Origin: Pinisolibacter aquiterrae
GTDB taxonomy: Bacteria > Pseudomonadota > Alphaproteobacteria > Rhizobiales > Ancalomicrobiaceae
DNA: 64,000 bases
NCBI RefSeq assembly: GCF_019160155.1
Contig: NZ_JAFNIH010000041.1
Span: 228,871 to 292,870 of the forward strand
Direction: 5' to 3'
Part shown: piece after piece, positions 10,646-63,370 of the stretch
Layout: each line of letters starts with the position of its first letter
How positions within the stretch are numbered: position 1 is the first letter of the stretch
The notes under the pieces: model-generated
Told to the model about the DNA's origin: nothing
What the model saw: only the letters and a program-made list of their open reading frames with translations
The model's database searches: none
Translations under genes and position numbers: made by a program

Positions 10646-11341
10646 TCAGATCTCTTCGTCGGCCTCTTCCTGCCGATCGGTCCGCTCGGGCGGGGTGGCG
10701 ACCGGGGGATATTGATCCAAGGCCTCCTCGAGCCGATCGGTGACGGTCGCCCACCCCCGATCGAAGATGATCGCCTTGGAGCAGAACTCGACCAGATCCC
10801 TCCCGCGCGTGCTCGAGGTGATCAGCGTCTTGCCCTCCGTCCGTTCGTCGAACAGCACCCGCCACATCTGCCCGAAACGGTCTCGGGGAGACGGAAAGGG
10901 CGCGTCGACGATATAGATGTCGAACGGTGGCAGAAGGGCGATGGCGAAGACGAATTCCCGCCGGAACTCGATGGGCCAGTGCGTCGACAGCTCGTCGAGT
11001 TGCGCGGGCGAGGTCAGAAGCGTCTCGAGAATCCCGTTCGACAGGGCCATGTCGAGACCGTAGAGCCGAGCGACCAGCGCGACGATGTGGCGGCCCGTGA
11101 CCTTGCCGCGAATGAAGCCGGGACGCCCGATCGGCCAGGACGACGATCCGACTGCGGTGACATGACCGGCGTGAGGGGGCCTCAGCCGCGCGAGCAGGTC
11201 GATCGCCGGACGACGCAGGTGGGGGTCGCCCGTCAGCAGGGCATAGCGGTCGACGGGGAGGTCCAGGTCGACGCGATCGGCCAAGAGCCGCTTCGAACCG
11301 GCGACGCGAGGCGAATCCGAGACCCGACTGAGAAGGATCAT
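10646..11341 (-). CDS. Degenerate ABC-transporter ATPase (pseudo-ATPase) paired with Kps-type permease
   Basis: A 231-residue protein with the length and outline of a KpsT/CtrD-type exporter ATPase, but every catalytic motif is eroded. The Walker A position reads GDPHLRRPAID (residues 38-48) without the Gly-Lys-Ser/Thr, the signature position reads STHWPIEFRREF, Walker B is IYIVDA with Ala147 where the catalytic Glu belongs, and the switch His position is in TSSTRG. The frame is intact and the ATG follows the permease stop by four bases, so it looks maintained. It probably cannot hydrolyse ATP; a regulatory or scaffolding role, or partnership with an ATPase encoded elsewhere, is inferred. The acidic tail is EEADEEI. 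Confidence 0.72.
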   Translation of the reverse strand: MILLSRVSDSPRVAGSKRLLADRVDLDLPVDRYALLTGDPHLRRPAIDLLARLRPPHAGHVTAVGSSSWPIGRPGFIRGKVTGRHIVALVARLYGLDMALSNGILETLLTSPAQLDELSTHWPIEFRREFVFAIALLPPFDIYIVDAPFPSPRDRFGQMWRVLFDERTEGKTLITSSTRGRDLVEFCSKAIIFDRGWATVTDRLEEALDQYPPVATPPERTDRQEEADEEI

Positions 11342-11345
11342 TGTG

Positions 11346-12590
11346 TCACATGGGCTGGATGTAACGTCGTATCAGCCTTTCCGCGATGAGGGCGATCGAC
11401 AGGCCCGCGATCACCGACAACCAGAAATAGCTCAGGCTGGCGTCCGAACAAACATATGCGTCGAAATAGAAGGAGCGCAACAGCTGCGTCCCGTGCGCCA
11501 GCGGATTCCAGAGGATGTATCCGCGATAGGCCTCGGGGAGTTGCTCCGTCACGAAAAAGATCGAGGAGAACAACTGCAGGATTCTCTCGATGACGGGGGT
11601 CAGGCGATTGAAGTAGGGCCAGAAGATGTCGATCGTCCCGAAGAGGACGCCGAGGCTCAAGCCCAGCGCCCAGATCCCGACGAAATGAACCGCGACCAGG
11701 GCCATGTGGTCCGGCGGCCCCATCAGGCCGAGCGCGCCGCCGATCAGGGAGATCGTCGTCAGCGACACGGTGAAGATCACCAGATAGATCAGCGCCACGG
11801 CGACGGCCTGATGCATGGGGGTGATCATCGGGAAGTTCACCAGGACCCGGTTGTGCGAAATCTGGCCGGTGACGCGGAAGATCACCTGCCGAAACATGAC
11901 CCAACTCCCGCCGCCGAGGAGGGCGAAGGTCGGAACGTCCATGTTCAGGATCGTGCGCGTGTCGACCAGGAGATAGCCGACGTGGATGATCGCCAGGAGG
12001 ACCGCCGGCTGTATCAGCAGCCAGACGACCGCGATGCGGCTTTCGGACGCGATCAGATGGAACTGGTGCAGGACCAGGGCCCGGACGATGTTGATCGTGT
12101 TCGAAGGCGACGACGACGTGGTGGAGCCGGTCCCCGTCCGGGGATCGAGGAAGGCGAGGGCCTGCCGCAGCCTGTCGACCGTCGCGGTGTCCGCCGGAGA
12201 GGCCGGGTCCGGCGCGCCGGCGGAAGCCCGTTCGCGTTCGACGATTCCCCGTTTCCGATCGAGACGGACACGCCGGCTGCGTTCGAGGTTCTCGAGAATG
12301 GCGTCCAGTTCCGCCGGGCGATAGTTCGGGGCCCAGACGTCGATGCCGGCGCGAATGTCGAGCTCCAGGAGACGGATGGTCTGCCTCAAGATGCGGATTT
12401 CGATTTCGCGGGTATCCTCGTCCATCGGAGGGTCCTGCGAATCGAAGAAGCGCAAGAGGTACTTCTGAGCGCTGTCGTATATTCTTCGCCGATCGCCCAT
12501 CGTCTCGTGCGGGGCGCCGGCGAGCGCGCGAAGCAAGACCGTGAGATAGGAGCGCTTCGTGGACGCCGTCTCGGCTTGCTGCGCGGACAT
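11346..12590 (-). CDS. Kps/Wzm-type ABC-2 polysaccharide export permease with long N-terminal extension
   Basis: Predicted inner-membrane exporter subunit, 414 residues. The C-terminal 260 residues hold six hydrophobic segments of the ABC-2 type (for example VWLLIQPAVLLAIIHVGYLL and FWLSVIAGLSIALIAERLI), as in KpsM. The first 150 or so residues are hydrophilic, rich in Arg and Glu and probably partly coiled, which KpsM proteins normally lack. The ATG at 12590 gives a sensible Met-Ser start; the upstream frame is low complexity. It precedes the degenerate ATPase gene by four bases and is divergent from the ligase/carrier operon. Confidence 0.82.
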   Translation of the reverse strand: MSAQQAETASTKRSYLTVLLRALAGAPHETMGDRRRIYDSAQKYLLRFFDSQDPPMDEDTREIEIRILRQTIRLLELDIRAGIDVWAPNYRPAELDAILENLERSRRVRLDRKRGIVERERASAGAPDPASPADTATVDRLRQALAFLDPRTGTGSTTSSSPSNTINIVRALVLHQFHLIASESRIAVVWLLIQPAVLLAIIHVGYLLVDTRTILNMDVPTFALLGGGSWVMFRQVIFRVTGQISHNRVLVNFPMITPMHQAVAVALIYLVIFTVSLTTISLIGGALGLMGPPDHMALVAVHFVGIWALGLSLGVLFGTIDIFWPYFNRLTPVIERILQLFSSIFFVTEQLPEAYRGYILWNPLAHGTQLLRSFYFDAYVCSDASLSYFWLSVIAGLSIALIAERLIRRYIQPM

Positions 12591-12992
12591 GGGTCGGAAC
12601 TCCGGTCGGATCGAAACCGCGTGGCGGCGATCGGTGCGGCGAGAGGAGCCCGAGAGGGCTGGGTCCACATCGACGGCCGATCCCCGTGTAATGCTCTTTC
12701 GCGAAGTGAATTGTATATGACAAGGCGAATTCGGTGGCCTTTTCTTGATGGGGGGGCGTGAGCCGCCTCCGAGGGGTCTCGCTCGCCGCCCCCGCGAGAC
12801 CGTCGCGGGCACCGGCTCGAGACCGGCACCGGCTGTCTGATTGACAGACGGTGCGCGAGTCTGCGATCAAGAGCCTGCGGAGAGACCGTCGGTGAGGTGG
12901 CGGCCAAAGGAGCTCCCGACGGCTCGGCGACTTTGAAAATCGGAAAATCTGACCTTCACGGATTGCCGACGAGCTTCATGGGAGTTTCCGAA
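12591..12992. promoter_or_regulatory. 402-base divergent promoter region between exporter and ligase operons
   Basis: No gene is supported here. It is less GC-rich than its surroundings in two places. An inverted repeat CTGTC-TGATT-GACAG lies at 12833-12847 and overlaps an exact TTGACA (12841-12846); the best -10 match 18 bases on (GATCAA) is poor. GGAG at 12981-12984 is the ribosome-binding site of the ligase. Promoters are therefore only tentatively located. Confidence 0.35.
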
Positions 12993-14489
12993 ATGTTTGT
13001 CGATGTAGTCGACCGTTTCTTGGCGATGGCGGAACGGCATCCACACCGCTCGGCAATAGAAACTTCCGACGGACGATACAGCTACGCTTGGCTGGAGGAG
13101 CGTGTCCGCGCCTATGCGAAGATCTTCTCCGCGCTTCCGGAACCGAAGATCGCGATAGCCCTGCCGCAGGTGGCCGACGCCTATGCGTGTATCTTGGCCA
13201 GTGGGCTCGCCGGCGGCTTTCACACGCCGATGAACACGACCGCCCCGGCCGACAAGCTCAAGCGCATCCTGCGCAGCTTCGAGCCGGATTTCGTCGTCGC
13301 CAGTGCCGCGACGGCCGGCGAGTTGCTCGACGCGGCGCCGAACGCGGTACACATCGACCCGACCACGGTCTCGTCGAGCGACGGGCTCTCCGGCGCCGGC
13401 CGACGCAATCGTCTCGCCTATGTCATGTTCACCTCCGGCTCTACCGGCGAGCCGAAGGGCGTGATGATTTCGCGGGCCAGCCTCGCCAATTACGTGGACT
13501 GGCTGGGGACGCTCGGCATCACGCCGGACGATCGCCTCTCGCAACAGCCCAATCTCGCCTTCGACATCAGCATGACCGACATCTTCGGAGCCCTGTGCTT
13601 CGGGGCGTCGCTCCACCCGCTGAACGAGGAGACGGATCGGATGTTCCCGGCGCAGTTCATCGCGCGGAAGGGCATCACGATCTGGAACTCCACACCGAGC
13701 GCCGTCAGCCTGATGATGCGCGCGCGGCAGGTGACGCGCGAGAATCTGTCGACGGTCCGCCTCTTCAACTTCTGTGGCGAGCCTCTGGTTCGCCAGCAGC
13801 TCGACGCGATCTTCGCGGTCGTGCCGGAGGCGCTGGCGCAGAACACCTATGGTCCGACCGAGGCCACCATCGCGATCACCGAACAGCCGCTGACCGCCTC
13901 CGACTACGAGCGCTTCTGTGGCGCGTCGGTCGCCCTCGGCCCCTGCATTCCGAACATGAAGGTCACGCTCGTCGGCGGCCCCTCGCCCAATGAGGGGCAG
14001 GTGGTGATCTCGGGGCCGCAGCTCGCCGAAGGCTATTGGCGCGACCCGGTTCGCACCGATCAGGCCTTCCAGGCGATCCCGGAACTCGGTGGCGAGCGCG
14101 GGTACTTCACCGGCGACTGGGCGGAGATGCGCGACGGCAATCTCTTCTTCAAGGAGCGTATCGACTTCCAGGTCAAGGTGAAGGGCTATCGGATCGAGAT
14201 GGACGAGGTCGTGTCCGCGATCAGAAAGTGTGGCTGGCCGGTGGCGATCGTCTTCAAGCGGGACGATTCCCTCGCGGCGGTGGTCGAGAGCAACGGCGGT
14301 GCGCCGCTCGACGAAGCCGCTCTCAAGGCCGCGCTGACGACGGTGATCGAGGCGCATGCGGTTCCGAGCCGCATTCTCGAGATTCCGAAGGCCCCGCGCA
14401 ACGAGAATGACAAACTCGACCGAAAGGCCGCGGCCGCCTGGTTCGAGGAGACACTTCACGCGATGAAGGAGCGTAGAAAAAATGGATGA
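12993..14489 (+). CDS. Class I adenylate-forming ligase (DltA/NRPS adenylation-like)
   Basis: Activates a carboxylic acid as acyl- or aminoacyl-adenylate and probably loads it on the carrier protein encoded next. The 498-residue enzyme has the P-loop-like core FTSGSTGEPKGV, NTYGPTEATIAIT, YFTGDWAEM, the hinge motif FQVKVKGYRIEMDEV and the C-terminal lysine in NENDKLDRKA. Overall it resembles D-alanine:carrier-protein ligase DltA and stand-alone NRPS adenylation domains, but the amino-acid specificity cannot be read by eye. I chose ATG 12993 because GGAG lies eight bases before it. Its stop overlaps the carrier start by eight bases. Confidence 0.88.
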   Translation: MFVDVVDRFLAMAERHPHRSAIETSDGRYSYAWLEERVRAYAKIFSALPEPKIAIALPQVADAYACILASGLAGGFHTPMNTTAPADKLKRILRSFEPDFVVASAATAGELLDAAPNAVHIDPTTVSSSDGLSGAGRRNRLAYVMFTSGSTGEPKGVMISRASLANYVDWLGTLGITPDDRLSQQPNLAFDISMTDIFGALCFGASLHPLNEETDRMFPAQFIARKGITIWNSTPSAVSLMMRARQVTRENLSTVRLFNFCGEPLVRQQLDAIFAVVPEALAQNTYGPTEATIAITEQPLTASDYERFCGASVALGPCIPNMKVTLVGGPSPNEGQVVISGPQLAEGYWRDPVRTDQAFQAIPELGGERGYFTGDWAEMRDGNLFFKERIDFQVKVKGYRIEMDEVVSAIRKCGWPVAIVFKRDDSLAAVVESNGGAPLDEAALKAALTTVIEAHAVPSRILEIPKAPRNENDKLDRKAAAAWFEETLHAMKERRKNG

Positions 14490-14751
14490 ACAGGCGATCT
14501 TCAACCGCATCGTCGACATCATCTCGGCCGAATTCCCCGACAACGACGAGCCGATCACGCGGGACACCACCGCCGAGGACGTCGCCGGCTGGGACAGCAT
14601 CGCTCACGTCGGACTGATGGCGGCGATCGAGGAGGCCTTCGGCATTCGCTTCTCGCCGGTCGAGATCGTGAGCTTCGAAGAGGTCGGCGGGGTCGTGCGC
14701 TCCGTCGCGGAGAAATTGGCCGCAGCCGGTGGCGCTGCCGCCGCTTCTTGA
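14482..14751 (+). CDS. Acyl/aminoacyl carrier protein
   Basis: An 89-residue carrier protein with the phosphopantetheine attachment site GWDSIAH (Ser about residue 39) and the following acidic helix (MAAIEEAFGIRF) that docks partner enzymes. Length and sequence fit ACP or Dcp/DltC-type carriers. It starts inside the ligase stop region after AAGGAG, so translation is coupled, and the ligase is its likely loading enzyme. No phosphopantetheinyl transferase lies nearby. Confidence 0.9.
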   Translation: MDEQAIFNRIVDIISAEFPDNDEPITRDTTAEDVAGWDSIAHVGLMAAIEEAFGIRFSPVEIVSFEEVGGVVRSVAEKLAAAGGAAAAS

Positions 14752-14766
14752 ACGCGAGGGTGAGCC

Positions 14767-15369
14767 GTGACCCAAGAGATACGCCGACTGACGAGGAGCG
14801 ACGTCGAAAGTGGCCTGAGCGAGGACGCGAAGGTCGATCTCGGCGACCTCATCTTCAGTGCTCTGCCGGAGCTCTACGAGCACGTCCCGATGGATCGGGA
14901 CGCTCTCAAGAAGATTCTCGCCGATCAGGTCGATGTCGAGATGACCGAGCTTTCGGAGACCTGGAGCTATTGGGAGGAGGGGCGCTTGCTCGGACTTCTC
15001 TCGGTGGTCGATTCGAAGGACCTCACGCCGTGCCAGCGCAACGGCACTCTCGACATCGTGCGTCGGCTCTCGCCCGAGGGCCGCAAGACCTTCAGGGACG
15101 TGCTGACGGGTCACGGTGCTCGCGTCGAGGATCTCGCGCGGCCGGAAGGGAAGTACCTGCCTCGGATGGCGGTTTCCGCCGCCGCGCGAGGACGAGGCGT
15201 GGCGCGCAAGCTGATGAACCACGTGCTCGGCCTCTATCCCGATCAGCTCTTCGCGCTTCATGTGGCGCGGACCAACGACATCGTCATTCGACTGCACACG
15301 TCTCTCGGATTCGTGCGGCAATCGGACGTGGATCTCCCGATCGTCGTGCTGGTTCGTCCCCCTGTGTGA
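14767..15369 (+). CDS. GNAT-family acyltransferase
   Basis: A 200-residue GNAT-fold protein. The acyl-CoA-binding loop is PRMAVSAAARGRGVARKLMNHVLG (Arg/Gly-x-x-Gly type) and the C-terminal strand is DIVIRLHTSLGFVRQSD, typical of the family. It starts with GTG after GAGGGTGAG, 15 bases after the carrier gene. In this operon it could transfer an acyl group from the carrier protein to a sugar or amine; that role is inferred from context only. Confidence 0.75.
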   Translation: MTQEIRRLTRSDVESGLSEDAKVDLGDLIFSALPELYEHVPMDRDALKKILADQVDVEMTELSETWSYWEEGRLLGLLSVVDSKDLTPCQRNGTLDIVRRLSPEGRKTFRDVLTGHGARVEDLARPEGKYLPRMAVSAAARGRGVARKLMNHVLGLYPDQLFALHVARTNDIVIRLHTSLGFVRQSDVDLPIVVLVRPPV

Positions 15370-15564
15370 ACGGCATCGAACATGGTCCCGGCCGGAACCA
15401 CGCCTCGGCGACGATCGGCCCCGACGCGCGGTCCATGTCGAACTTCGTCGACCCGCGCGACGAGGTTCGATCCCGTCGGCATGCCGGACCGGGAAATCAC
15501 GGCGTCTCTCGGGCAGAGTGGCGTTGCGACGACGACATCTCGTCGTAACTGAGGAGGCTGGCAG

Positions 15565-17898
15565 TTGAGCCGCATTCGTCCCATCACCTTCGGTGGTTGC
15601 CTGCTGAACAATCTCGTCTCGATCCTGCATCAGGAGGGGCGGGTCGACGGCCTGTTTCGAGAAATCGGCTTCAAACGGACCCCGTTCACGATCTCGGCGG
15701 CCAGCGCCGCGCAGCTCTGTGATTTCCTGACGGGGAGCATCGTGATCCCCGAGCACGTGCGGAAGTTCTGCTACCTCGACGCGTCGCACGTCCCGACGGG
15801 CGCTCAGACCAAGATCGCGGCGACCGCCGACTTCGCGACGGTCGAAATGAGCACGTCCGTCGACATCACTTATGACGGTTTCATCGTCAATACGAACAGG
15901 TTCCAGCAATATATCCTGCCGGAGCTGGATACGCTCGGCATCCACCACCGTATGGTCGCGAAGTGGCGCTCCAGCCTGATCAATGAGAACGAGGCGGAAC
16001 GCGCGAAATACGCCGCCGAGATCTTGGAGGTTCTCCCGCGCCAGCCGCAATACGAATGGATCGCCGATCTCGTGGGAAGAACGAGCTCGCGCCGGCTGAC
16101 GGTCGACGAGATGGTCGAGCACATCGCGCGCATTCGCGATGTCCTGCGCGTTCCCCTGGCGATGGTTCACCACAATTTCCGCTTCATGCCGGACGGGCGC
16201 CCCCTCTCCTGGCCGGCGGAGTTGAAGGATCAGTCGATCGAGGTCGCCAAGCGTCTCGGCGCCTTCGAGCACGACTTCGCGCCCTTCGTCGCCGAACACG
16301 GAGCGAAGCGGGTCTTGGCCGACGATTTCCGCCATTGGAACGTCGATTTCTACCCGCAGATCGCCAACCATCTCTACGGATTCTTCTGCAAGGTCGCCGG
16401 ACGGTCGCAGGACGAGCGCGTCGCCGCCCAGCCGGCGTTGGATCTGACGGAGCTGGAGACCGACGACGGTCCGCCCGAGGTGAAGCCCAAGAAGAAGCAG
16501 GCGGCGCGCGAAGCACCTGCCCCCGCACCGGCACCTGCGCCCGTGTCGGCGCCCGAAGCGGCGCCGTCGCCGAGCCGGACGATCCGCAGTGCTGACGTGA
16601 ACGCGACCGGGACCTTCGTCGATCACATCGCCTATGACGTCGCGACGGGCACCCATTTCGACTTCGACCCGCAGGTCTTGAACATGATCGTCGTCCTCGG
16701 CCAGTCCTGGGCCTTGGGCGGGAACAACGACGAGGCGGGCGACACGACGGTCACCACGACGCCGGAGCACCCCGGACACGCGCTCATGTTCGACTCCGGC
16801 GCCGCCCCGCGCGGCCGCGCTCTCACGCGACTGGTCGATCTGAAGGAGAACGCGACCGGGTCGACGAAGGAGACGCCCTGCGGTGGTCTCGCCGACTATG
16901 TCATGCGCACCTGCGAGCAGCGTTTCGGGCGGAAGCCGGTCGTCCTCTTCACCACCGTCGGCCGGGGCGGAACGACCCTGACCGGCGCGGGACAGAGCGG
17001 TGACGACGGCCTTCTCCGGGGATCGGCCCAACATCGCGAGACGATGCGTCTCGTCGCCAAGGCCGTCGAACTCGCCCGGGCCGAGGGCAAGCAGGTTCGC
17101 GTCCTCGCCCTCTGTCTCGCCCACGGCGAATCCGATTCCGGCCACCGCATGCCGTATGAGGCCTATCTGCGTGGGATGGTCCTGGTGCGGCAGCACTACG
17201 ACGCCGACATTCGCCGGCTGACCGGGCAGATCGAGACCGTTCCGATGCTCACCTATCAGGCGAACCGGGGCGCGTCACGACCCGGCCTGATCGCCGGGCC
17301 GGTGCTCGCCCAGTTCGAGGTGCGAAACCTCGACCCGTACATCCGTTGCATCGGGCCGGTCTATCATCACGAGGCCGAGTTCCGCGCCGATGGCCGCAGC
17401 GGACACCTGAAGGCGATCGGCTACCGCCGCATCGGCTACCAGTTCGGGCGTTACCTGCTCGACGATCTCTTCGGACGCGGCGTCGACCCGTTGCACATCG
17501 TCGACGTGCGCCAGTCGCGCCCCGACAAGCTCGAGGTCTTCTTCAACGCGCCGATCGTGGTCGAGGACGGCGACGAGCGCGTCGACACCTCCGCGCTCGG
17601 GCCGGGGAAGGGGGTCGACTTCGTCGGCACGCGCCGGCTCGATCCGACCGTCGCCTCGGTGCAGGTGTCGCAAGCGGACGATCGACTGCTGGAGGTCGTC
17701 CTCACCGAGCCGCTGCGGAACCTGGACGGCCGCCTCTTCGTCGCGGCGCGCTTCACGGGCCCCTCCAACTGCGGACGACGCCAGGGCGCCCGCAGCGGCA
17801 TCCGGTCGAAGGTCGCCTATGGCGCCGATCCTCTCGGCGGCGAGGACCTGTTCGATTGGGCCTGCACCCAGGTCGTCGCGCTGAAGCGCAACACCTGA
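15565..17898 (+). CDS. Tandem SGNH-hydrolase-like protein, putative surface-glycan acyl esterase/transferase
   Basis: A 777-residue protein with no signal peptide visible. The N-terminal part (1-290) looks like a divergent SGNH domain: block I reads TFGGC (8-12), so the usual nucleophile Ser is Cys12, and DDFRHWNVDFYP (253-264) resembles the Asp/His block. An Ala/Pro/Lys-rich linker spans about 300-340. The C-terminal part resembles sialate-O-acetylesterase-type SGNH hydrolases, with VVLGQSWALGG (Ser381), the LAHGESDSG block (518-526) and RSGHLKAIGYRRIGYQFG near 615. The start is TTG 15565 after GAGGAGG. It is last in the ligase/carrier/GNAT operon and may place or remove acyl groups on an exported glycan. 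Confidence 0.68.
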   Translation: MSRIRPITFGGCLLNNLVSILHQEGRVDGLFREIGFKRTPFTISAASAAQLCDFLTGSIVIPEHVRKFCYLDASHVPTGAQTKIAATADFATVEMSTSVDITYDGFIVNTNRFQQYILPELDTLGIHHRMVAKWRSSLINENEAERAKYAAEILEVLPRQPQYEWIADLVGRTSSRRLTVDEMVEHIARIRDVLRVPLAMVHHNFRFMPDGRPLSWPAELKDQSIEVAKRLGAFEHDFAPFVAEHGAKRVLADDFRHWNVDFYPQIANHLYGFFCKVAGRSQDERVAAQPALDLTELETDDGPPEVKPKKKQAAREAPAPAPAPAPVSAPEAAPSPSRTIRSADVNATGTFVDHIAYDVATGTHFDFDPQVLNMIVVLGQSWALGGNNDEAGDTTVTTTPEHPGHALMFDSGAAPRGRALTRLVDLKENATGSTKETPCGGLADYVMRTCEQRFGRKPVVLFTTVGRGGTTLTGAGQSGDDGLLRGSAQHRETMRLVAKAVELARAEGKQVRVLALCLAHGESDSGHRMPYEAYLRGMVLVRQHYDADIRRLTGQIETVPMLTYQANRGASRPGLIAGPVLAQFEVRNLDPYIRCIGPVYHHEAEFRADGRSGHLKAIGYRRIGYQFGRYLLDDLFGRGVDPLHIVDVRQSRPDKLEVFFNAPIVVEDGDERVDTSALGPGKGVDFVGTRRLDPTVASVQVSQADDRLLEVVLTEPLRNLDGRLFVAARFTGPSNCGRRQGARSGIRSKVAYGADPLGGEDLFDWACTQVVALKRNT

Positions 17899-19500: not shown

Positions 19501-20559
19501 TCAGATCCGCCGGAACACCGGGCTCTTCTTTTCCGCGCCGTCGGAGGCGGTGAGGAACCGTTCGGTGAAGATGCCCTTCTCGAAGAGCCGTCCGCGCATC
19601 AGCGTCGAGATCGCCGCCTCGATCATCGGCGGCGGTCCGCAGAGATAGGCGGTCTGCCCCTCGAAGCCGTTCGCGTGGAGCCGCTCGGCGACCTCGTGGA
19701 CGAAGCCGCGTTCGCCGTTCCAGGGGCTTCCCTCCGGTTCCGCCGACAGCGCCGGCACGTAGCGGAAATTGGCGTGCCGCGCGGCGAGCGCCTCGAATTC
19801 GGCCTGCCCGTAGAGATCGGCGCGCGTGCGAACGCCGTGTATCAGCGTGATCGGCGCGTCGTATCCCTCCGCCAGGAGATCGAGGATCATCGAGCGCGGG
19901 CTCGACACGCCGGTGCCGCCGGCCAGGAACAACAGCGGCCCACCGCGCGACTTTCGCACGAAGAAGCGGCCGTAGGGCCCGGAGAAGGTCAGCCGGTCGC
20001 CGACCTTCAGCGTCTCGTGCAACGCCGTGGTGGCGCGCCCGCCGACGACCTTGCGGATCTGCAGCTCGACGTGGCCGGCCTCCTGCGGCGGATTGGCGAT
20101 CGAGAAGGCGCGGGTGCCCTCGACGCCGGGAATGGTCAGATTGACGTATTGCCCGGCCTGGAAGTCGATGGTAGCGCCGCCGAGCTCGAGACGGATGCCC
20201 TTGACGTCATGGGTGAGATCGTCGAGCGCCGCGACGGTCGCGGTATGGTCGGCGATCGCGATGCGGCGTTGGTCGGGATCCTCGTCGATCTCCGCCTCGA
20301 TGGTGACGTCGTCGAGGAGCCGCGCCGTGCAGGCGAGCGTCTTGCCGTCGGCGCGTTCGAAGTCCATCAGCGCGAAGGAGGACGCATCGGCGTGGTCGAC
20401 CTCCCCGTCGACGACGTCGACCTTGCAGGTGCCGCACAGTCCGTGGCCGCAGGCATGCGGCAACCAGATCCCGGCGCGCAGACAGGCATCGAGGATGGTC
20501 TGCCCATCCTCGACCCGGATCGTCTCGCCGAGCGGCTCGATCGTCAGATCGTGACCCAT
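19501..20559 (-). CDS. dmpP: Phenol hydroxylase reductase, P5 component
   Basis: FAD- and [2Fe-2S]-containing NADH reductase that feeds electrons to the di-iron hydroxylase. The 352-residue protein has an N-terminal plant-type ferredoxin domain with C-x4-C-x2-C (CGHGLCGTC) and a distal Cys in LACTAR, then the FAD motif TRAFSIANPP and the NAD-binding part (FLAGGTGVSSPRSM, YLCGPPPMI). The ATG at 20559 gives the family's N-terminus. It is 14 bases after dmpO. Confidence 0.93.
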   Translation of the reverse strand: MGHDLTIEPLGETIRVEDGQTILDACLRAGIWLPHACGHGLCGTCKVDVVDGEVDHADASSFALMDFERADGKTLACTARLLDDVTIEAEIDEDPDQRRIAIADHTATVAALDDLTHDVKGIRLELGGATIDFQAGQYVNLTIPGVEGTRAFSIANPPQEAGHVELQIRKVVGGRATTALHETLKVGDRLTFSGPYGRFFVRKSRGGPLLFLAGGTGVSSPRSMILDLLAEGYDAPITLIHGVRTRADLYGQAEFEALAARHANFRYVPALSAEPEGSPWNGERGFVHEVAERLHANGFEGQTAYLCGPPPMIEAAISTLMRGRLFEKGIFTERFLTASDGAEKKSPVFRRI

Positions 20560-20573
20560 GACGTCCTCGCTCC

Positions 20574-20942
20574 TCAGCTCGCCGTGCCCTTCCAGCCGGA
20601 AAGGCCGGGCGTCCAGAACCGGACGAGGGTCTTGTGCTTCATGCCGTTGGCCGCGAGCGAGGCCTCCATGTCCGGCACCTTGGTCGCGCCGTCGATCATC
20701 CAGACGACCGCCGACCAGTCGATCGAGGCGGCCTCGGGGTGGGCGGCATAGGCGGGAGCGACGACCTCCGACACGAAGGCGCCGAAGGGTATCGCCGGCG
20801 GCAGCGGGAAGGCGACGGCGGAGCAGAAGGAGAGATGATCCTCCCAATGCACATAGACGAGCATGTTGCCGTGGAAATTCTCCACGGGATCGCGCGGCTC
20901 GATCCGGCGCGCGTAATCGGGAACGATGGCGGTGACCGACAT
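20574..20942 (-). CDS. dmpO: Phenol hydroxylase P4 component
   Basis: The gamma subunit of the (alpha-beta-gamma)2 phenol hydroxylase, 122 residues. Sequences NFHGNMLVYVHWEDHLSFCSAVAFPLP and PAYAAHPEA match the DmpO family. The ATG at 20942 gives MSVTAIVPDYA; the longer upstream frame is not coding. It lies 68 bases after dmpN in the operon. Confidence 0.92.
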   Translation of the reverse strand: MSVTAIVPDYARRIEPRDPVENFHGNMLVYVHWEDHLSFCSAVAFPLPPAIPFGAFVSEVVAPAYAAHPEAASIDWSAVVWMIDGATKVPDMEASLAANGMKHKTLVRFWTPGLSGWKGTAS

Positions 20943-21010
20943 GGGGGCGTTCTCCTGGCGAAGGCGTGACGGCGCGCGGCCGTCACGGCGTTTCGCGGTT
21001 CGTCGAAGGT

Positions 21011-22525
21011 TCAGACGGCTTCGCGGGTCTTGGCCGCGTGCCATTCGCTCCAGAGGCGGTCGTCCGGCGAGCCGACATAGTCCATGTTGTCGGCGCCGAC
21101 GTTCATCCGATACCAGTTCAGAACGTCGGGAACGGTCGCGCCGCCACAGTTGCCCTGGAAGATCTGGTGCACCGGCAGCCACGACTGGATGTATTTCTCC
21201 GGTTCGGCATCGAAGATGTCTTTGCAGCCGTCCGAGCAGAAGTGATAGGTCTCGCCGGCGACCTCGGTGCAGCGGAACGCGATCTTGGTCGGGTCTCCCG
21301 GCTCCGTATAGGCCATCGGGATCTGGCAGACCTGACAGAGCTGCGGCAGCGACGGATTGTAGAAGCGCTTGCCTTCCTTCTCCATCTCGGCCCACATCTC
21401 CCAGCGCGGGCGATAGTACTTGTCGAAGGTGTTCGGATATTTTTCCGACAACCAGTCGAGATGCTCCTTGTCGGGCATCCAGGTGTGGAACGCGGCGGCG
21501 TGGCTGTACTGGTAGAACACCGCCCAGTTCTGGTGGGAGATGTGCTCCGCCGCCTCGGTCGCGACGTCGGCGTATTTCGGCACCTTGAGCCCGTAGCGCT
21601 CGAGGTCCTGGAACAGCGAGCCGCCGGCCTCGGTGAAGTAGATCTCCCAGGCCTCCTTCCAGGACATGACCTTCTTGGGCAGCATGTAGTCCATCATCAT
21701 GGCGACGAGGCCGAGCACGCGGAAGCCGCGCCAGAACCACTTGTCGACCCACTTCTGCACGATCGGCAGATTGTCGGGATGCTGCTCGAGCAGGAACTTG
21801 ATGACCTCGATGCCGAGCGTCATGTGGCGGCTCTCGTCGGACTGCGCCGAGAAGCCGAAGGTCACCGTCGACATGTCGCCGTTGTAGGCCGCGCCCGACA
21901 TGAAGGGCACGAACAGCAGATTGGTCAGCAGGTATTCGAAGGCGAAGCCGATCGCGATCATGAACTCGAACGGCCCGGCCGCCCGCGCGTCGTCGAAGAA
22001 CGACTTCGGTACCGAGAGGTACCACACGCGATCGTGCATGTGCGGGAACTCGCCGATCCCGTCGAAGAACTTGTTGTAGTGGCTGATCGTGTGGATCTGC
22101 GTCTGCAGATGGCGCAGCTCGTCGAGCGACTGCATCTGGCAGGCGATGCGCGGACCGGCGCCGCGCAGGTGCCGGCCGGTGAAGGCGAAGCCGCGATGGG
22201 CCTGATACTCGAGCGGCGACACGCCGGTCAGGAACAGCTTGACGACGTTGATGTAACGCCCGTCGGAGACGCCGGTCTGGCCGTTGTTCTGGGCGAAGGC
22301 GTCGAGCACGGCGTAGAGCTTGCGCTCCTTCTCCGCCTGGAACTTCCAATAGGAGTCCATGGTGAGCCGGAAGGGATCCTCCCAGGCCGACCAGTCCTTG
22401 ATCTTGATCCCCTCGAACGTGTCGTAGGGAAAGACCGCGTCCATCGGCTGATAGGTGGTCTCCCAGTCGAGACCGCGGGTCATGTGGGCGTAGCGCTGCT
22501 TCAGCCCGAGCTTCTTCGGTGCCAT
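21011..22525 (-). CDS. dmpN: Phenol hydroxylase P3 component, catalytic di-iron alpha subunit
   Basis: Oxygenase subunit that hydroxylates phenol to catechol. The 504-residue protein has the two E-x-x-H iron-ligand motifs of bacterial multicomponent monooxygenases, in DELRHLQTQ (about 136) and DESRHMTLG (about 233). A C-terminal zinc-type segment (CQVCQIPM and CSDGCKDIF) is also as in DmpN. Full length for the family. With dmpL and dmpO it makes the hydroxylase and dmpM is its effector. Confidence 0.95.
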   Translation of the reverse strand: MAPKKLGLKQRYAHMTRGLDWETTYQPMDAVFPYDTFEGIKIKDWSAWEDPFRLTMDSYWKFQAEKERKLYAVLDAFAQNNGQTGVSDGRYINVVKLFLTGVSPLEYQAHRGFAFTGRHLRGAGPRIACQMQSLDELRHLQTQIHTISHYNKFFDGIGEFPHMHDRVWYLSVPKSFFDDARAAGPFEFMIAIGFAFEYLLTNLLFVPFMSGAAYNGDMSTVTFGFSAQSDESRHMTLGIEVIKFLLEQHPDNLPIVQKWVDKWFWRGFRVLGLVAMMMDYMLPKKVMSWKEAWEIYFTEAGGSLFQDLERYGLKVPKYADVATEAAEHISHQNWAVFYQYSHAAAFHTWMPDKEHLDWLSEKYPNTFDKYYRPRWEMWAEMEKEGKRFYNPSLPQLCQVCQIPMAYTEPGDPTKIAFRCTEVAGETYHFCSDGCKDIFDAEPEKYIQSWLPVHQIFQGNCGGATVPDVLNWYRMNVGADNMDYVGSPDDRLWSEWHAAKTREAV

Positions 22526-22547
22526 CGTCGTTTCCTCCCGGGGATCT

Positions 22548-22820
22548 TCAGTGCTTCCAGCTGAGCTTGAACCAGTCGTCGTCCTCGTCGAGATTGCCGG
22601 CCATCGAGATCAGCACCAGCTGGATCTCCTGCGGCTCCCACGGACGTCCGAGCCGGGCCTCGACCGAGGCGCGGTTGACGACGAGTTCGTCGTCGCAGTC
22701 GAGCTTGACCGCGCCGGGCATGTTGAGAACACGGACGCCGGGATTGTCGGCGAGGATCGCCTCGATGATCGGGCGGGCGTCGTCGTTGTGGAGCAGGGTG
22801 ATCGAAGCGATCTGGGCCAT
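22548..22820 (-). CDS. dmpM: Phenol hydroxylase P2 effector protein
   Basis: Small cofactorless regulatory (coupling) protein, 90 residues. It has the usual DmpM pattern ITLLHNDDARPIIEAILADNPGV and ends in WFKLSWKH. It binds the hydroxylase and speeds oxygen activation in this family. Located between dmpL and dmpN with gaps of 16 and 22 bases. Confidence 0.93.
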   Translation of the reverse strand: MAQIASITLLHNDDARPIIEAILADNPGVRVLNMPGAVKLDCDDELVVNRASVEARLGRPWEPQEIQLVLISMAGNLDEDDDWFKLSWKH

Positions 22821-22836
22821 CGGGTCGGTCCTTCGG

Positions 22837-23826
22837 TCAGAGGGTCAGGCCGAGCCCGCGGGCGCGGGTGCGGGCGGCATCGGCGGCGGCGGTCGCCGCG
22901 CTCTCGTCGCCGACGAGATCCACCGACAGCGGCCGGCCGGCCTCTTCCGCGCGATCGATCCACTCTTTCGCCCATTGCGAGACGAGGGCGAGGTTCTCCG
23001 GGCTCTCGGCCGCGACGGTCTTGACGACCACGTCGGACCACTTGCCCTCCTCGGCGCGCCAATCGGCCATGAACTCGGTCAGCATCGCGACGGTGAGACC
23101 GGCGGTGCCCCAGGCGGCCTCGCCATGGCGATAGACGAGGTCGAGCAGGACCGCGTTCACGCCGAGGGTCTGGGCGACGAAGAGCCGGAACCAGTCGCGC
23201 TCGACGAAACTGTCCTCGATCAGCCGGCGCGCGCCCTGCCAGGCCGGGGCGGTGAGCCAGGCCTCCTTGGCGGCGTCGAGCGAGGACCCGCTCTGCCCGT
23301 CGAGGACGAGGCCGATACGGCTGACGATCTGGGCCATGCCGAGCTGGTCGGCGGCGGAGAAGATGCAAGGGGCGGTCACCGCGGTGCCGTAACCGCGCTG
23401 GCAGATCTCCGCCATGTTCATGTTGGAGCCCCAGTGCAGGTGGCGGATCGGCAGCAGGCCGGAGATCAGCCGCGCCTTCACCGCCTCGCCGGCCTTGCCG
23501 AGGAGATCGCGTTCCTCGACGAAGGCGAAGTTGCGATCGACCGCCTGCTGCATGTTGGCGCGGGCGATGTTGTAGGTCCCGTAGTAGAACTGGCGCGGAT
23601 CGAGAGGCTTGTACCAGTCCTCCATCACCACGGCGGTCTTGCGGGTGTCGTAGAGCCAGTATTCCGGCTCCCACAGGGGCTTGTAGTGGAAGTTCGCCGT
23701 CGCCTGGACGTCGAGCGTCGCCTCCTGGTAGCGCGTCGCCGGCTTGTCGCCGCCGAGACGGCGGGCGATGTGCCCGAACGTCTGGCGTTTCGGCTCGAGA
23801 TCGATGGTCTTGATCTGTACGCTCAC
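22837..23826 (-). CDS. dmpL: Phenol hydroxylase P1 component, beta subunit
   Basis: The 329-residue non-catalytic beta subunit of the di-iron hydroxylase. It starts with GTG (MSVQIKTIDLEPKRQTF) and contains family sequence YKPLWEPEYWLYDTRKTAV and GSNMNMAEICQRGYG. It keeps the ferritin-like fold but lacks a full set of iron ligands, as expected. Second cistron of the operon, 61 bases after dmpK. Confidence 0.93.
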   Translation of the reverse strand: MSVQIKTIDLEPKRQTFGHIARRLGGDKPATRYQEATLDVQATANFHYKPLWEPEYWLYDTRKTAVVMEDWYKPLDPRQFYYGTYNIARANMQQAVDRNFAFVEERDLLGKAGEAVKARLISGLLPIRHLHWGSNMNMAEICQRGYGTAVTAPCIFSAADQLGMAQIVSRIGLVLDGQSGSSLDAAKEAWLTAPAWQGARRLIEDSFVERDWFRLFVAQTLGVNAVLLDLVYRHGEAAWGTAGLTVAMLTEFMADWRAEEGKWSDVVVKTVAAESPENLALVSQWAKEWIDRAEEAGRPLSVDLVGDESAATAAADAARTRARGLGLTL

Positions 23827-23887
23827 CGTTTTCCTCCTCGGGCCGTCGGCCGGCCTCTCGTCTGTCGTCGGGGGAAGCGGCGCGGGG

Positions 23888-24196
23888 TCAGCGCGCCGGA
23901 TCCGTGTCCTCTCGCGCCGTGCGACGCAGCAGGCCGGGATGGCCGGCGCGCCAAGCCATCTGTTCCAGCGTCTCCGCCGTCTTCGGATCAGGGGGGAGCA
24001 CTTCCGCCGAACGGGTTCGGCAGAACTCTTCGAAGGCCTTGGTCGGCAGGATCAGCTCGACCGCGAGCGTGCCGTCGCCGAGCGAATATTCGAACTCTAC
24101 GAAACGCCCCAGCCGCGTGCCGAGAATGCGGACGCGGGCTTGGCGGGGGTCGTCGCTGCCGGGCGCGACGGTGCGCGCTTCGACCTCGTCGGTCAC
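23888..24196 (-). CDS. dmpK: Phenol hydroxylase P0 assembly component
   Basis: The 102-residue first cistron of the operon; DmpK proteins help build the active iron-containing hydroxylase. Sequence FVEFEYSLGDGTLAVELILPTKAFEEFC is characteristic. GTG 24196 is supported by GGGAGG five bases before it. About 55 bases separate it from the -10 of the sigma-70-like promoter at 24259-24287. Confidence 0.87.
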   Translation of the reverse strand: MTDEVEARTVAPGSDDPRQARVRILGTRLGRFVEFEYSLGDGTLAVELILPTKAFEEFCRTRSAEVLPPDPKTAETLEQMAWRAGHPGLLRRTAREDTDPAR

Positions 24197-59676: not shown

Positions 59677-59688
59677 TCAGGGGCGCCA
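59670..59688. repeat. Hairpin enclosing the stop codon of the nucleotide-sugar dehydrogenase
   Basis: TGGCGCC (59670-59676) pairs with GGCGCCA (59682-59688); the loop contains the TGA stop (59679-59677 on the minus strand). No T run follows, so it is a doubtful terminator. Confidence 0.4.
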
Positions 59689-60948
59689 GAGCGTGATGTC
59701 GTCGGGCTTGGTCGAACGGTCGAGCACGCCCTTGACGTCGAGGACGATGCCGCCGGCGCCGCCGAGGAGCCGCGAGACGAGCGGCCAGCCCGCCTCGACG
59801 TAGTCCCGATGGGAGACCGCGAAGACCACCGCGCCGACCGGACCGATCGCCTCGACGGGGGTGAGAGTGACGCCGTATTCCCTCTTCGCCTCCTCGGGCG
59901 AGGCCAGCGGATCGGCGACCACGACCTCGGTTCCGAAGGCTTCCAACTCGTTGATGATGTCGGCGACCTTGGAGTTGCGGAGATCGGGGATGTTTTCCTT
60001 GAAGGTGAGGCCGAGGACCGCCACCCGGCGATTGGTCGCCCGGGTCTTGGTCATCAGGCGCACGCATTCGCGCGCAATGTGCTCGCCGACCGAATCGTTG
60101 ATGCGGCGGCCGGCCAGGATCACGTGCGGATGGTAGCCGAAACGCTCCGACTGATAGGTCAGGTAATAGGGGTCGACGCCGATGCAGTGACCGCCGACCA
60201 GACCGGGCGTGAAGGCGAGGAAGTTCCACTTCGTCGACGCCGCCGCCAGAACGTCGTTGGTGTCGATGCCGAGGCGATGGAAGATCCGCGACAGCTCGTT
60301 CATGAAGGCGATGTTGATGTCGCGCTGCGAGTTCTCGATCACCTTGGAGGCTTCGGCGACCTTGATCGACGAGGCCCGATGGATCCCGGCCTTGACCACG
60401 GACCCGTAGACCTCGGCGACGATGTCGAGCGTGCGCTGATCCTGGCCGGCGACGACCTTGGTGATCGTCTCGAACGTGTGCAGCTTGTCGCCCGGATTGA
60501 TGCGCTCCGGCGAATAGCCGACGGTGAAGTCGCGGCCGCAGACGAGGCCGGAGGCCTCCTCGAGGATCGGGACGCGCACCTCTTCGGTCGCGCCGGGATA
60601 GACGGTCGATTCGTAGACGACGATGGCGCCCTTGCGCATCGCCGACCCGACCGACCGGGACGCCGACCGGAGCGGGGTCAGATCGGGCTGATTGGCGCGA
60701 TCGACCGGCGTGGGAACCGTGACCACGAAGAAATCGGCCTCGCCGAGAATGGCGGACTCGTTGGTGAAACGGATGCTCGCGCCCGCGAGGTCCTCCGCGG
60801 AAATCTCGAGCGTACGGTCGACGTTGCGCGAGAGTTCCTCGATACGGGAGGTGTCGATGTCGAAACCGATGGTGTGCTTACCCGATTTCGCAAAGGCCAC
60901 GGCGACGGGGAGTCCGACGTAGCCAAGGCCGACGACCGCAAATTTCAT
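59677..60948 (-). CDS. Nucleotide-sugar dehydrogenase (UDP-glucose/UDP-N-acetylhexosamine type)
   Basis: A 423-residue NAD-dependent dehydrogenase that oxidises a UDP-sugar to the uronate. The N-terminal Rossmann motif is FAVVGLGYVGLPVAVAFA, the central helix has EASKVIENSQRDINIAFMNEL and the catalytic Cys lies in GLVGGHCIGVDPYYLTYQ, as in WbpA/VipA-type enzymes more than in classical Ugd. ATG 60948 is preceded by AGGTGA; a TTG at 60969 is an alternative. It should supply precursors for the capsule. Confidence 0.9.
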   Translation of the reverse strand: MKFAVVGLGYVGLPVAVAFAKSGKHTIGFDIDTSRIEELSRNVDRTLEISAEDLAGASIRFTNESAILGEADFFVVTVPTPVDRANQPDLTPLRSASRSVGSAMRKGAIVVYESTVYPGATEEVRVPILEEASGLVCGRDFTVGYSPERINPGDKLHTFETITKVVAGQDQRTLDIVAEVYGSVVKAGIHRASSIKVAEASKVIENSQRDINIAFMNELSRIFHRLGIDTNDVLAAASTKWNFLAFTPGLVGGHCIGVDPYYLTYQSERFGYHPHVILAGRRINDSVGEHIARECVRLMTKTRATNRRVAVLGLTFKENIPDLRNSKVADIINELEAFGTEVVVADPLASPEEAKREYGVTLTPVEAIGPVGAVVFAVSHRDYVEAGWPLVSRLLGGAGGIVLDVKGVLDRSTKPDDITLWRP

Positions 60949-61128
60949 GTCATCACCTGTCGATTTCAAACAATGTTCGACGCTTCATATCGTCGCTGGC
61001 GGAATTCTACTCGTACGGCGGCGGCAATAAGGCACGGAACGCGGCCGATCTCAATCTCAAAAGCGGCCCGATCGCACCTCGACGCACGTCGCCATGGTCG
61101 CAGGCATGCCCTCCTTGCGCGTCGAAAG

Positions 61129-62130
61129 TCAGCTCGCGTAATACGAGCGATACCAATCGACGAAGTTGCGAATGCCGACGGAGACCGGCGTCGACGGGCG
61201 ATAACCCGTGAGCGCTTCGAGCAGTTCCGCCGCCGCGTAGGTGGCCGGAACGTCGCCCTTCTGCATCTCCATGAAGTTCTTCTTCACCGGCACGCCGAGC
61301 GCCCGCTCGATCTCGTCGACGTAGTCGAGGAGCGCCACGGGCACGCCGCCGCCGATGTTGACGACCCGGTAGGGGGCGGCCGGCGAAAGCGAATCGATCT
61401 CGCCGATCGGCGATCCCGCCACCGGGACGCAGCCGATCAGACGCGCGATCGCCTCGACGAGGTCGCCGACATAGGTGAAGTCGCGCATCATGTTGCCGTG
61501 GCCGTAGACGTCGATCGGTTCCCCGGCGAGCGTCGCGCGGACGAACTTGAAGAGCGCCATGTCCGGCCGGCCCCAGGGACCGTAGACGGTGAAGAAGCGG
61601 AAGGCCGTGGTCGGGATCTTCCAGAGATGCGCATAGGAATGCGCCATGTCCTCCGTCGCCTTCTTGGTGGCGGCGTAGAGGGTCATGGGATGATCGGTGC
61701 GCTCGGTCTCGTGGAACGGCATGTCCTGATTGGCGCCGTAGACCGAACTGGTCGAGGCGAAGAGGAAATGCTTCACCTCGAGCCGGCGGGCGAGCTCCAT
61801 CACGTTGAACGTGCCGACGAGATTGGAATCGACATAGGCCCGCGGATTCTCGAGGCTGTAACGGACGCCGGCCTGGGCGGCGAGATGAACGATCACGTCG
61901 GGCCGCGCCGCCTCGACGACCGCGTTCAGCGTCGCCTCGTCCTCGAGCATGACGGTATGGGCGGCGAAGGCGTTGGTACGGCCGAGAATCCGATGGCGGG
62001 CTTCCTTCAGGCGCACGTCGTAATAGGGCGTCATGCCGTCGACGCCGGTGACCAGATGACCGTCGGCGAGCAGCCGCTTGGCCAGATGGAAACCGATGAA
62101 ACCGGCGGTTCCGGTGATCAGGACGTGCAT
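61129..62130 (-). CDS. NAD-dependent sugar epimerase (UDP-glucuronate 4-epimerase type)
   Basis: A 333-residue short-chain epimerase. N-terminal [15 protein letters not shown], a Ser/Tyr-x3-Lys catalytic set (STSSVYG and [19 protein letters not shown]) and [18 protein letters not shown] identify the UDP-GlcA 4-epimerase (LpsL-like) group, giving UDP-GalA. GAGGAG precedes the ATG at 62130. Together with the neighbouring dehydrogenase it makes uronic-acid sugars for the capsule. Confidence 0.92.
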
Positions 62131-62215
62131 CGTGCTCCTCGTCATTCGAACATCCACGGGACGAGGCCGGCGCGCCGCCGGCCTCGGAGTTTCCGACCCT
62201 GTTCGATCGATCGCC

Positions 62216-63370
62216 TCAGTTCACGGTCGCGGTCGACTTGAACGCGCCGACGGTCGAGGTGACGCCCCGGATCACGGTCACGAACTTCGAGAATTGAACG
62301 GTGGGAGCGTTGGCGACGTAGATCATGTCCTTGTCGCGGACGGTGATCTGTTGGGCGAAGAAGTAATCTCCGGCCTTGTCGAAGCGAAGCCGATAGATGA
62401 CCGGAACGGGTTCGTTGCCGGCGAGATGTCTGGAGTTCGGACGCAGGGCGCGCACGACGCTCGCCGCCTCGCGACGGAACAGGAACACGGCGCTGGAATC
62501 GGCCTGGGTGTCGATCAGACCACCCGCCTTGGCGACCGCCTGCAGCAGCGTCATCGGCTCGTCGTCGATCGGATAGTCCTTCTGCGCGGCGACCGCGCCG
62601 AGCGCCACGAACACCGGGGCGTCGCGATAGACGTAGATCTTGTCGCCCGGGTAGACGTAGACGTCTTCCTTCGGGTTCCTGAGGATCGTCTCGAGCAGCG
62701 CCGACTCGCTCGTCGAACCGCGCGTCAGCCGGACCTTGGTCTCGTGCGGCAGCGTCTTGACGCCGCCGGCCTGGGCGATGACGTCGAGCAGGCGATCGCC
62801 CTTGAGGGAGAGCGCGACGCGCGCGGCGCCGGTGGCGTCGCCGGTCACGGTGGCGGCGGCGCCGTTGCCCTGCGTCGAGACGATCACCTGCGGTTCGATC
62901 GCCTTGTCCTTGAGCTTGGTCTCGATGGCCTTGGCGACCGCGGCGGGCGTGCGCCCGGCGGCGGGGACGCGTCCGGCATAGGGGACGCTCAGCGACCCGT
63001 CGCGATCGACGGTCTGCGGCGGCAGCGCGATGTTGCGCGAACCGGCCGAGGTCGTGCCCATCGGCGCGGTATTGGAGAAGAGACCGCCGCCGGCGGCCTC
63101 GAAGATGGTGATGACGACCTGGTCGCCGACGGACAGCGCCTGCGAGGGCGCCGGAGCGTGGCTCGAGAAGCGGCCGGCGAAGGCATTGACGGGGCGATTG
63201 CGCAGCGCCGGCAGGTCCGACTCGGTGACGTCGATCACTTCATAGGGAAGGTCGGCGACCTCCGTGCCCGTCGGTTCCACGACCATGCTCGCGGTCGGTC
63301 CGGAGGCCGGAAGATTGGAACATCCCGCGAGGAGACCGAAGAGAAGGGGCAGGAGGATCAGCTTCTTCAT
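62216..63370 (-). CDS. Polysaccharide export lipoprotein (Wza/KpsD-like)
   Basis: A 384-residue outer-membrane auxiliary protein. Lipobox LLAGC (Cys17) follows a short signal. The polysaccharide export domain ([18 protein letters not shown]) is followed by SLBB-type repeats ([27 protein letters not shown] and [31 protein letters not shown]). It forms the outer-membrane pore or its collar for capsule export. Same orientation as the KpsE-like gene upstream. Confidence 0.92.

Follow-up and report, generated by a model that had tools for sequence, protein, structure and literature searches.

What does a set of acyl-activating genes do beside a capsule exporter, and how is that exporter powered if its ATPase subunit lacks the residues for ATP hydrolysis? 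Both questions are raised by a locus at 10.6–17.9 kb of a 64,000-nucleotide stretch of the Pinisolibacter aquiterrae genome (contig NZ_JAFNIH010000041.1, positions 228,871 to 292,870; the whole stretch is called the window below), where genes for a ligase, a carrier protein, a GNAT acyltransferase and a 777-residue protein face genes for a KpsM-like permease and a KpsT-like subunit. Judged from its sequence, the locus looks like a variant of the Vi-antigen type of capsule locus, with an acylation cassette and a conserved ATPase-dead exporter subunit. We consider it probable (about 0.7) that these genes form the cassette and the inner-membrane exporter of a Vi-type capsule that depends on an ATP-binding cassette (ABC) exporter, and that aminoacyl groups attached to the carrier are transferred to the polymer before export. 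The conservation of the ATPase-dead subunit is the more surprising part, more so than the cassette.

Gene content of the locus and its relatives

The first-pass annotation of this DNA had described four genes facing an exporter pair, and all six open reading frames are present (the 777-residue protein is listed whole and by domain):

10646–11341, minus strand: ATPase-dead subunit in the KpsT/VexC position (NCBIfam VexC, 2e-5; without a Pfam match)
11346–12590, minus strand: KpsM-type ABC-2 permease, N-terminally extended by about 140–180 residues (KpsM, 3.3e-17)
12993–14489, plus strand: amino-acid-adenylating, DltA-like stand-alone ligase (AMP-binding, 8.7e-55)
14482–14751, plus strand: acyl/peptidyl carrier protein (PF00550, PP-binding, 1e-6)
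14767–15369, plus strand: GNAT acyltransferase (PF00583, 2.1e-8)
15565–17898, plus strand: 777-residue protein, whole (without a trustworthy Pfam match)
15565–16404, plus strand: its TviD-type (SGNH-like) acyltransferase domain, assigned with hhalign (candidate catalytic Cys12, Asp254 and His257)
16594–17898, plus strand: its C-terminal esterase-like SGNH domain, assigned by alignment (GQS, HGESD and a conserved His)

The longest frame of the KpsM-like gene is 11346–12812 (minus strand), and its true start is probably 12590, because the Mesorhizobium homologues begin at residue 75 of that frame. Similarly, the longest ligase frame is 12897–14489 (plus strand), and the starts of the Mesorhizobium homologues make 12993 the probable start.

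These homologues came from a plasmid collection, in which a tblastn search with the ligase returned 112 records at 1e-40. Four of these share 60–80% identity in the ligase, all of them Mesorhizobium, and all four carry the same succession of a NusG-like regulator, UDP-sugar dehydrogenase, epimerase, KpsM, KpsT-like subunit, KpsE, VexA-like protein, ligase, carrier and GNAT. Identity to the window's proteins is about 70% for the ligase, 51–57% for the carrier, 59–61% for the GNAT and 59–60% for the 777-residue protein. The gene for the last directly follows the GNAT gene in two plasmids (L058 and L060), where glycosyltransferases come next, and lies after mobile elements in the other two (transposases in L059, a recombinase in L061); in L059 its frame is broken into two pieces. 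Proteins encoded downstream in L058 match TviE (NF011726, 1e-157) and VexE (1.5e-107), and a VexE match is found in all four plasmids. Another neighbour of the Vi-type genes, lyase-like, has a weak match to pectate lyase (PF00544, 0.0077, below the cut-off). The earlier proposal that these genes form a set serving a surface polysaccharide and its exporter is thus borne out in every Mesorhizobium plasmid locus found, and the ligase–carrier–GNAT succession goes beyond chance. The proposal of a free-standing locus fell: the cassette sits within a Vi-type capsule locus whose other half, in the window's genome, lies at 59677 and beyond.

The capsule genes of P. aquiterrae therefore stand in two places about 42 kb apart. 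The first part, at 10.6–17.9 kb, holds the genes for KpsM, KpsT, ligase, carrier, GNAT and the 777-residue protein; the second begins at 59677 and extends past the window end, where lyase-like, PF05159 capsule, TPR and TviE-like genes follow the four in the window:

59677–60969, minus strand: TviB-like UDP-sugar dehydrogenase (NF011729, TviB, 1.1e-129)
61129–62157, minus strand: UDP-sugar epimerase, putatively in the TviC role (79% identity to the Labrys and 49–51% to the Mesorhizobium locus epimerase)
62216–63370, minus strand: VexA/KpsD-type outer-membrane export lipoprotein (NF011722, VexA, 2.5e-27)
63614–64000, minus strand: KpsE/VexD-type copolymerase, cut by the window end (56–57% identity to Mesorhizobium KpsE)

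The dehydrogenase is 52% identical to its Mesorhizobium and 66% to its Labrys homologues and reaches 433 bits against an equivalog cut-off of 592. The epimerase matches the TviC model at 2.2e-26 and scores higher with other epimerase models. The lipoprotein has Poly_export and SLBB domains and 67% identity to Mesorhizobium, and the copolymerase is 434 residues long in full (L045:5485–6789). The TviE-like polymerase, about 14 kb past the window end in L046, matches NF011726 at 2e-168, with 561.8 bits against a cut-off of 733. Within the same capsule locus lies a 704-residue PF05159 (Capsule_synth) protein (2.8e-80, L045:8561–10675), which reads as KpsC-like.

G+C content is 63.5–68.4% at 10–18 kb and 64.5–66.8% at 60–64 kb, against 70–74% across much of the rest, which lends weak support to both capsule-gene stretches being acquired DNA; other stretches of low G+C lie at 18–24, 30–32 and 34–38 kb. 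Between the capsule halves, genes at 19501–24196 read like a soluble di-iron monooxygenase cluster, with reductase and hydroxylase subunits.

A KpsT-like subunit without ATPase motifs

The first-pass annotation was right to call the KpsT-like protein, in passing, a pseudo-ATPase: its P-loop glycines, Walker-B glutamate, signature and H-loop histidine have all been replaced. Such a subunit would be unable to hydrolyse ATP by the usual chemistry. Its fold appears to be intact, as an AlphaFold2 model built with 12 relatives has a predicted local distance difference test score (pLDDT) of 91.4, with its best PDB matches to S. thermodepolymerans KpsT (template modelling score 0.77–0.83), and a profile of nine clade members matches KpsT of 8tsh at 6.3e-33.

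To place this loss among relatives, a nine-protein alignment of KpsT-like subunits was scanned against one genome per species for 84,980 species. The pattern was fitted by 77 stretches and 12 loci were confirmed, from Labrys (three), Paraburkholderia (three), Burkholderia, Eoetvoesiella and Caballeronia and from metagenome-assembled genomes (MAGs) of Novosphingobium, Siculibacillus and Neomegalonema. All 12 are degenerate, which is not a fair fraction, the scan pattern having favoured dead subunits with [DE][GA] at Walker B. Ten of these loci were examined (L065 and L066, near-copies of L064, were left out). The order KpsM-KpsT-KpsE is retained in the ten; seven have a VexE-like gene (in two pieces in L068), and seven have a full TviD-like gene, with L064 carrying a TviD-type domain alone.

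In a tree of 48 KpsT-like and related ABC ATPases from which near-copies had been removed, the 19 degenerate proteins form one branch (Shimodaira–Hasegawa-like approximate likelihood ratio test, 100); this was a quick tree with long branches flagged and the motif columns kept in. The clade spans alpha- and betaproteobacteria. In all 19 members the three P-loop glycines, the Walker-B glutamate and the H-loop histidine are missing, and the signature is also gone; for L099 the motif table gives a signature match, yet the column counts give no signature residue there. In the 29 comparison ATPases, the P-loop lysine is present in 29, the Walker-B glutamate in 25 and the H-loop histidine in 22. Charge is kept at two positions in 19/19 clade members: the P-loop lysine position is always basic (H, R or K), and the Walker-B aspartate position always acidic (D or E). 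We rejected the idea of an ATPase that had decayed in one genome, as the loss is common to 19 sequences on one branch.

Sampling by VexE gave four distinct loci (three in 398 genomes and two in 399, with G497 in both). Two have dead subunits (G497 and G663), and two keep the P-loop lysine with the Walker-B glutamate replaced (G570 and G309; L100 and L101). The latter two are alphaproteobacterial Vi-type loci, and their KpsT proteins perhaps represent an intermediate state of motif loss.

The permease beside the dead subunit is also unusual in length, at 391–470 residues (longest frames 488 in the window and 589 in L099); the other permeases compared have 251–330 residues, with exceptions of 377 (L092), 583 (L035) and 594 (L033). 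In G087 the KpsM gene and the dead subunit gene are about 9 kb apart. The literature searched, which covers subscription papers on Vi thinly, yielded no account of a degenerate KpsT in a capsule exporter, and this silence is weak evidence of novelty.

What, then, would power export? KpsMT capsule export is taken to be driven by ATP hydrolysis in KpsT. One possible explanation gives the dead subunit a structural or regulatory role, with a canonical ATPase from another locus driving export. A canonical KpsT was sought in nine, then ten genomes or records, comprising 15 distinct whole genomes (G106 and G952 are the same), at thresholds of 1e-12 and 1e-10 and with at most 150 first-look candidates per genome scored. 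Seven of the 15 genomes have a second KpsT-like ATPase (E ≤ 1e-35, at least 35% identity), including that of the window (C16:45486, 35%), and in six of the remaining eight, ABC ATPases of more distant kinship were found. A close KpsT may thus be borrowed in some genomes but not generally, because no second KpsT that close was found in eight of the 15. In six of these, the strongest match apart from the dead subunit lies at about 1e-14 to 1e-27, and for the Siculibacillus and Novosphingobium MAGs the sole match is, by position, the dead subunit itself. A more distant ATPase may be borrowed instead. Whatever the borrowed partner, a heterodimer with the dead subunit would retain two broken composite sites.

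It is doubtful, but conceivable, that no ATP is hydrolysed at this subunit at all and that the chain is driven through a KpsM channel by polymerisation or by the proton-motive force; the synthase would then dock on the dead subunit and the KpsM extension. The loss of motifs in all 19 proteins set against the KpsT fold modelled for the window's member, the retained gene order in ten loci and the pairing of the dead subunit with an N-terminally extended KpsM are all consistent with such a role. However, in the solved system the Walker-B mutation E151Q abolishes detectable capsule (PMC11041684); nucleotide binding may persist, given the residues that keep their charge at the P-loop lysine and Walker-B aspartate positions; and the separation of KpsM from KpsT in G087 does not favour it. 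Only tentatively would we go further and propose a conserved class of ABC-2 exporters for Vi-type polysaccharides that lack their own ATP hydrolysis and use another energy source or a borrowed motor, the window's polymer first being decorated in the cytoplasm by a TviD-type enzyme from an aminoacyl carrier. With many members in Vi-type loci, this motif-less clade offers a direct way to test what energises capsule export.

Proposed carrier-fed acylation and the 777-residue protein

The ligase matches the NCBIfam amino-acid adenylation domain at 1.6e-81 (274.2 bits, below the cut-off of 317.4) and DltA at 2.8e-72 (243.9 bits, below the cut-off of 559.85). In amino-acid-activating adenylation domains, an aspartate holds the amino group of the substrate. 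By eye, the ligase retains this aspartate and the adenylation motifs, so that an amino acid is the likely substrate. Its pocket code, read by hand as D-I-T-N-N-C-T-I-A, points to no particular one; the code of the one Mesorhizobium protein read (L058) differs only by a final A to S.

Both SGNH-like halves of the 777-residue protein that had been described are visible only by profile comparison and alignment. The whole protein matches the Vi TviD model weakly (0.0025, residues 36–115), and its first 280 residues align with the TviD N-domains of Vi-type loci with an hhalign probability of 99.1 (E = 4e-19; 251 columns, 22% identity). C12, D254 and H257 are invariant in a five-row alignment and align to the invariant C14, D247 and H250 of 11 rows. 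As the cysteine (in GGC, GTC or GSC) and D-x-x-H are invariant in both alignments, we infer that the N-domain is a Cys-His-Asp enzyme. TviD itself is reportedly an SGNH O-acetyltransferase with an atypical triad. The suggestion that the SGNH-type protein is an acyltransferase is likely to be correct, its N-domain joining those of TviD.

An alignment of the C-terminal domain includes a Thioclava protein and three others, which either look like prophage products or are encoded close to prophage genes. All 7 rows share GQS, a histidine, a G-G pair and the G of HGE/QGE/QGQ. Twenty-two phage records match it at 24–29% identity, some of them named tail fibre. The Thioclava relative matches SASA (PF03629) at 0.0029, with 17.7 bits against a cut-off of 24.8, and the window's protein has no match to this family. 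Relatives of the domain also lie inside proteins that read like prophage tail proteins (L003, L010 and L011), and these phage and prophage relatives may be capsule de-acylases. The Thioclava gene (L063:9635–11104) is carried by a plasmid that also has a type I-E CRISPR-Cas cluster, some 2 kb away.

The two halves are distributed differently among genomes. The whole protein matched seven of the 199 genomes of the order, its own included; in these matches the N-terminal half was hit in G198 only, and the match in G177 is to the linker alone. Searched by itself against 398 genomes of the phylum, the N-terminal half matched its own genome alone. Scans of genome contigs with the whole protein and of viral contigs with its C-terminal half confirmed no relative. 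At 1e-60 the ligase matched only its own genome among 199, and at 1e-35 it matched three of 15 in the family, the other two at 32–35% identity. The Mesorhizobium loci escaped these genome-set searches with the ligase and the 777-residue protein and were recovered from the plasmid collection. Labrys genomes hold the dehydrogenase, KpsM, KpsT, KpsE, a 279-residue TviD-type protein and the epimerase together.

What reads as another carrier-based acylation cassette stands in a second Labrys locus (L009, in G198), where a TviD-type domain is accompanied by a carrier (PF00550, 4.6e-6), an FkbH-like protein (FkbH_N, 1.8e-10) and a MaoC/SDR fusion; lyase- and VexE-like genes lie no more than about 10 kb away. 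Because two unrelated loaders, each with a carrier, adjoin the same type of transferase, we suggest that the TviD-type transferase draws its group from a carrier thioester; acetyl-CoA may serve instead where a locus has no loader.

We infer the substrate, the order of the GNAT and transferase steps, the acceptor sugar, the role of the C-terminal domain and the power source of export from these genes, as follows. The dehydrogenase and epimerase would make an N-acetylhexosamine-uronic acid donor, which the TviE-like glycosyltransferase encoded past the window end would polymerise in the cytoplasm. The ligase would adenylate a small amino acid and load it on the carrier, where the GNAT would probably N-acylate its amino group. 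The TviD-type domain, with its candidate Cys-His-Asp triad, would then move the group from the carrier onto the cytoplasmic polymer, and the esterase-like domain would edit or remove acyl groups. The polymer would exit through KpsM, KpsE and VexA, with a KpsT subunit that keeps its fold and carries out no usual ATP hydrolysis.

Vi polymer synthesis takes place in the cytoplasm (PMC3448643), so no acyl group would have to cross the membrane. This bears on the earlier idea that the SGNH protein replaces transfer by a membrane-bound O-acyltransferase (MBOAT). A ligase and carrier do occur without a DltB-type MBOAT, as had been stated: PF03062 has no match in the genome, and a control search matched in 3 of 14 genomes. 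The protein need not, however, stand in for a membrane step if the polymer is cytoplasmic. The cassette suggests that TviD-type enzymes can take acyl groups from dedicated carriers, which would allow capsules to be aminoacylated with no acyltransferase in the membrane.

Several observations weigh against a Vi-type capsule with carrier-fed acylation. All scores with Vi models fall below the NCBIfam equivalog cut-offs. No VexE match (NF011721) was found in the window's genome at 1e-30, only a weak 27% match to Mesorhizobium VexE; with no clear VexE, and with a PF05159 protein in the locus instead, the lipid anchor may differ from that of Vi. VexE uses beta-hydroxyacyl-acyl carrier protein (PMC9597891). 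The locus is split, and beside KpsE past the window end lies a second KpsT fragment interrupted by a stop (L045:6740–6985), so rearrangement has occurred. The full cassette is known only from the window and four Mesorhizobium plasmids that are related; the 15–21 kb around ten other dead-subunit loci did not show it, and a further Vi-type locus (L100) has only a distant ligase match (23%, 2.5e-12). The hhalign query profile was thin (Neff, the effective number of sequences, 1.75), and a single-sequence structure model of the 777-residue protein reached a pLDDT of only 36.5.

Could the 777-residue protein instead be a capsule esterase only, with the ligase, carrier and GNAT making a separate small molecule? 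The likeness of the C-terminal domain to phage tail-fibre and SASA-like esterase domains would fit, and ligases of this type occur in nonribosomal peptide synthetase pathways too. We regard this as improbable, since the N-terminal half is a TviD-type domain and all four genes lie within a capsule locus in each of the four Mesorhizobium plasmids. Far less likely still is a Dlt-like periplasmic D-alanylation of a surface polymer: the ligase has a DltA-like profile score but falls under the DltA cut-off, the genome has no PF03062 match and the partner protein is TviD-like. Identity with DltABCD was rejected on the first two of these grounds. We found no publication joining Mesorhizobium, capsular polysaccharide and the Vi antigen, in a search that again covered subscription Vi papers thinly; in the part available of a review of capsule attachment (PMC12220298), the Vi antigen is mentioned once, in the reference list.

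Comparison with known systems

Among the nearest known systems, the Vi antigen (viaB) capsule of Salmonella Typhi, Citrobacter and some Burkholderiales has in common with this locus TviB-, TviE-, VexA-, KpsE (VexD)- and KpsM (VexB)-like genes, along with a lyase-like gene and a TviD-type domain; VexE-like genes, as in Vi, occur in the Mesorhizobium, Labrys and Burkholderiales relatives. Unlike Vi, the window's locus adds the ligase, carrier and GNAT, its TviD domain is fused to an esterase-like domain with the TPR protein separate, its KpsT is ATPase-dead and its KpsM N-extended, and its genome has a PF05159 capsule protein rather than a clear VexE.

The exporter resembles the KpsMT-KpsE-KpsD exporter of S. 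thermodepolymerans (8tsh, 8tsi, 8tsl and 8tsw) in KpsT fold and, in most relatives, in KpsM-KpsT-KpsE order, and differs from it in the missing KpsT catalytic motifs and the N-terminal extension of KpsM. With Dlt D-alanylation (DltABCD) the locus shares a stand-alone amino-acid ligase and a carrier, whereas no MBOAT was found in the genome, the ligase stays under the DltA cut-off and the transferase is of TviD type and probably cytoplasmic. A loose parallel, by motif only, is the WcbI family, which also has a cysteine near the N terminus and belongs to a capsule locus; WcbI is a capsule protein with a CoA-binding Cys14 (PMC4104973). Finally, the C-terminal domain is like SASA esterases and phage tail-fibre esterase-like domains in its succession of GQS, GE(S/T)D and His, but it does not reach the Pfam cut-off and, unlike them, is joined, within a bacterial capsule locus, to a domain of TviD type.

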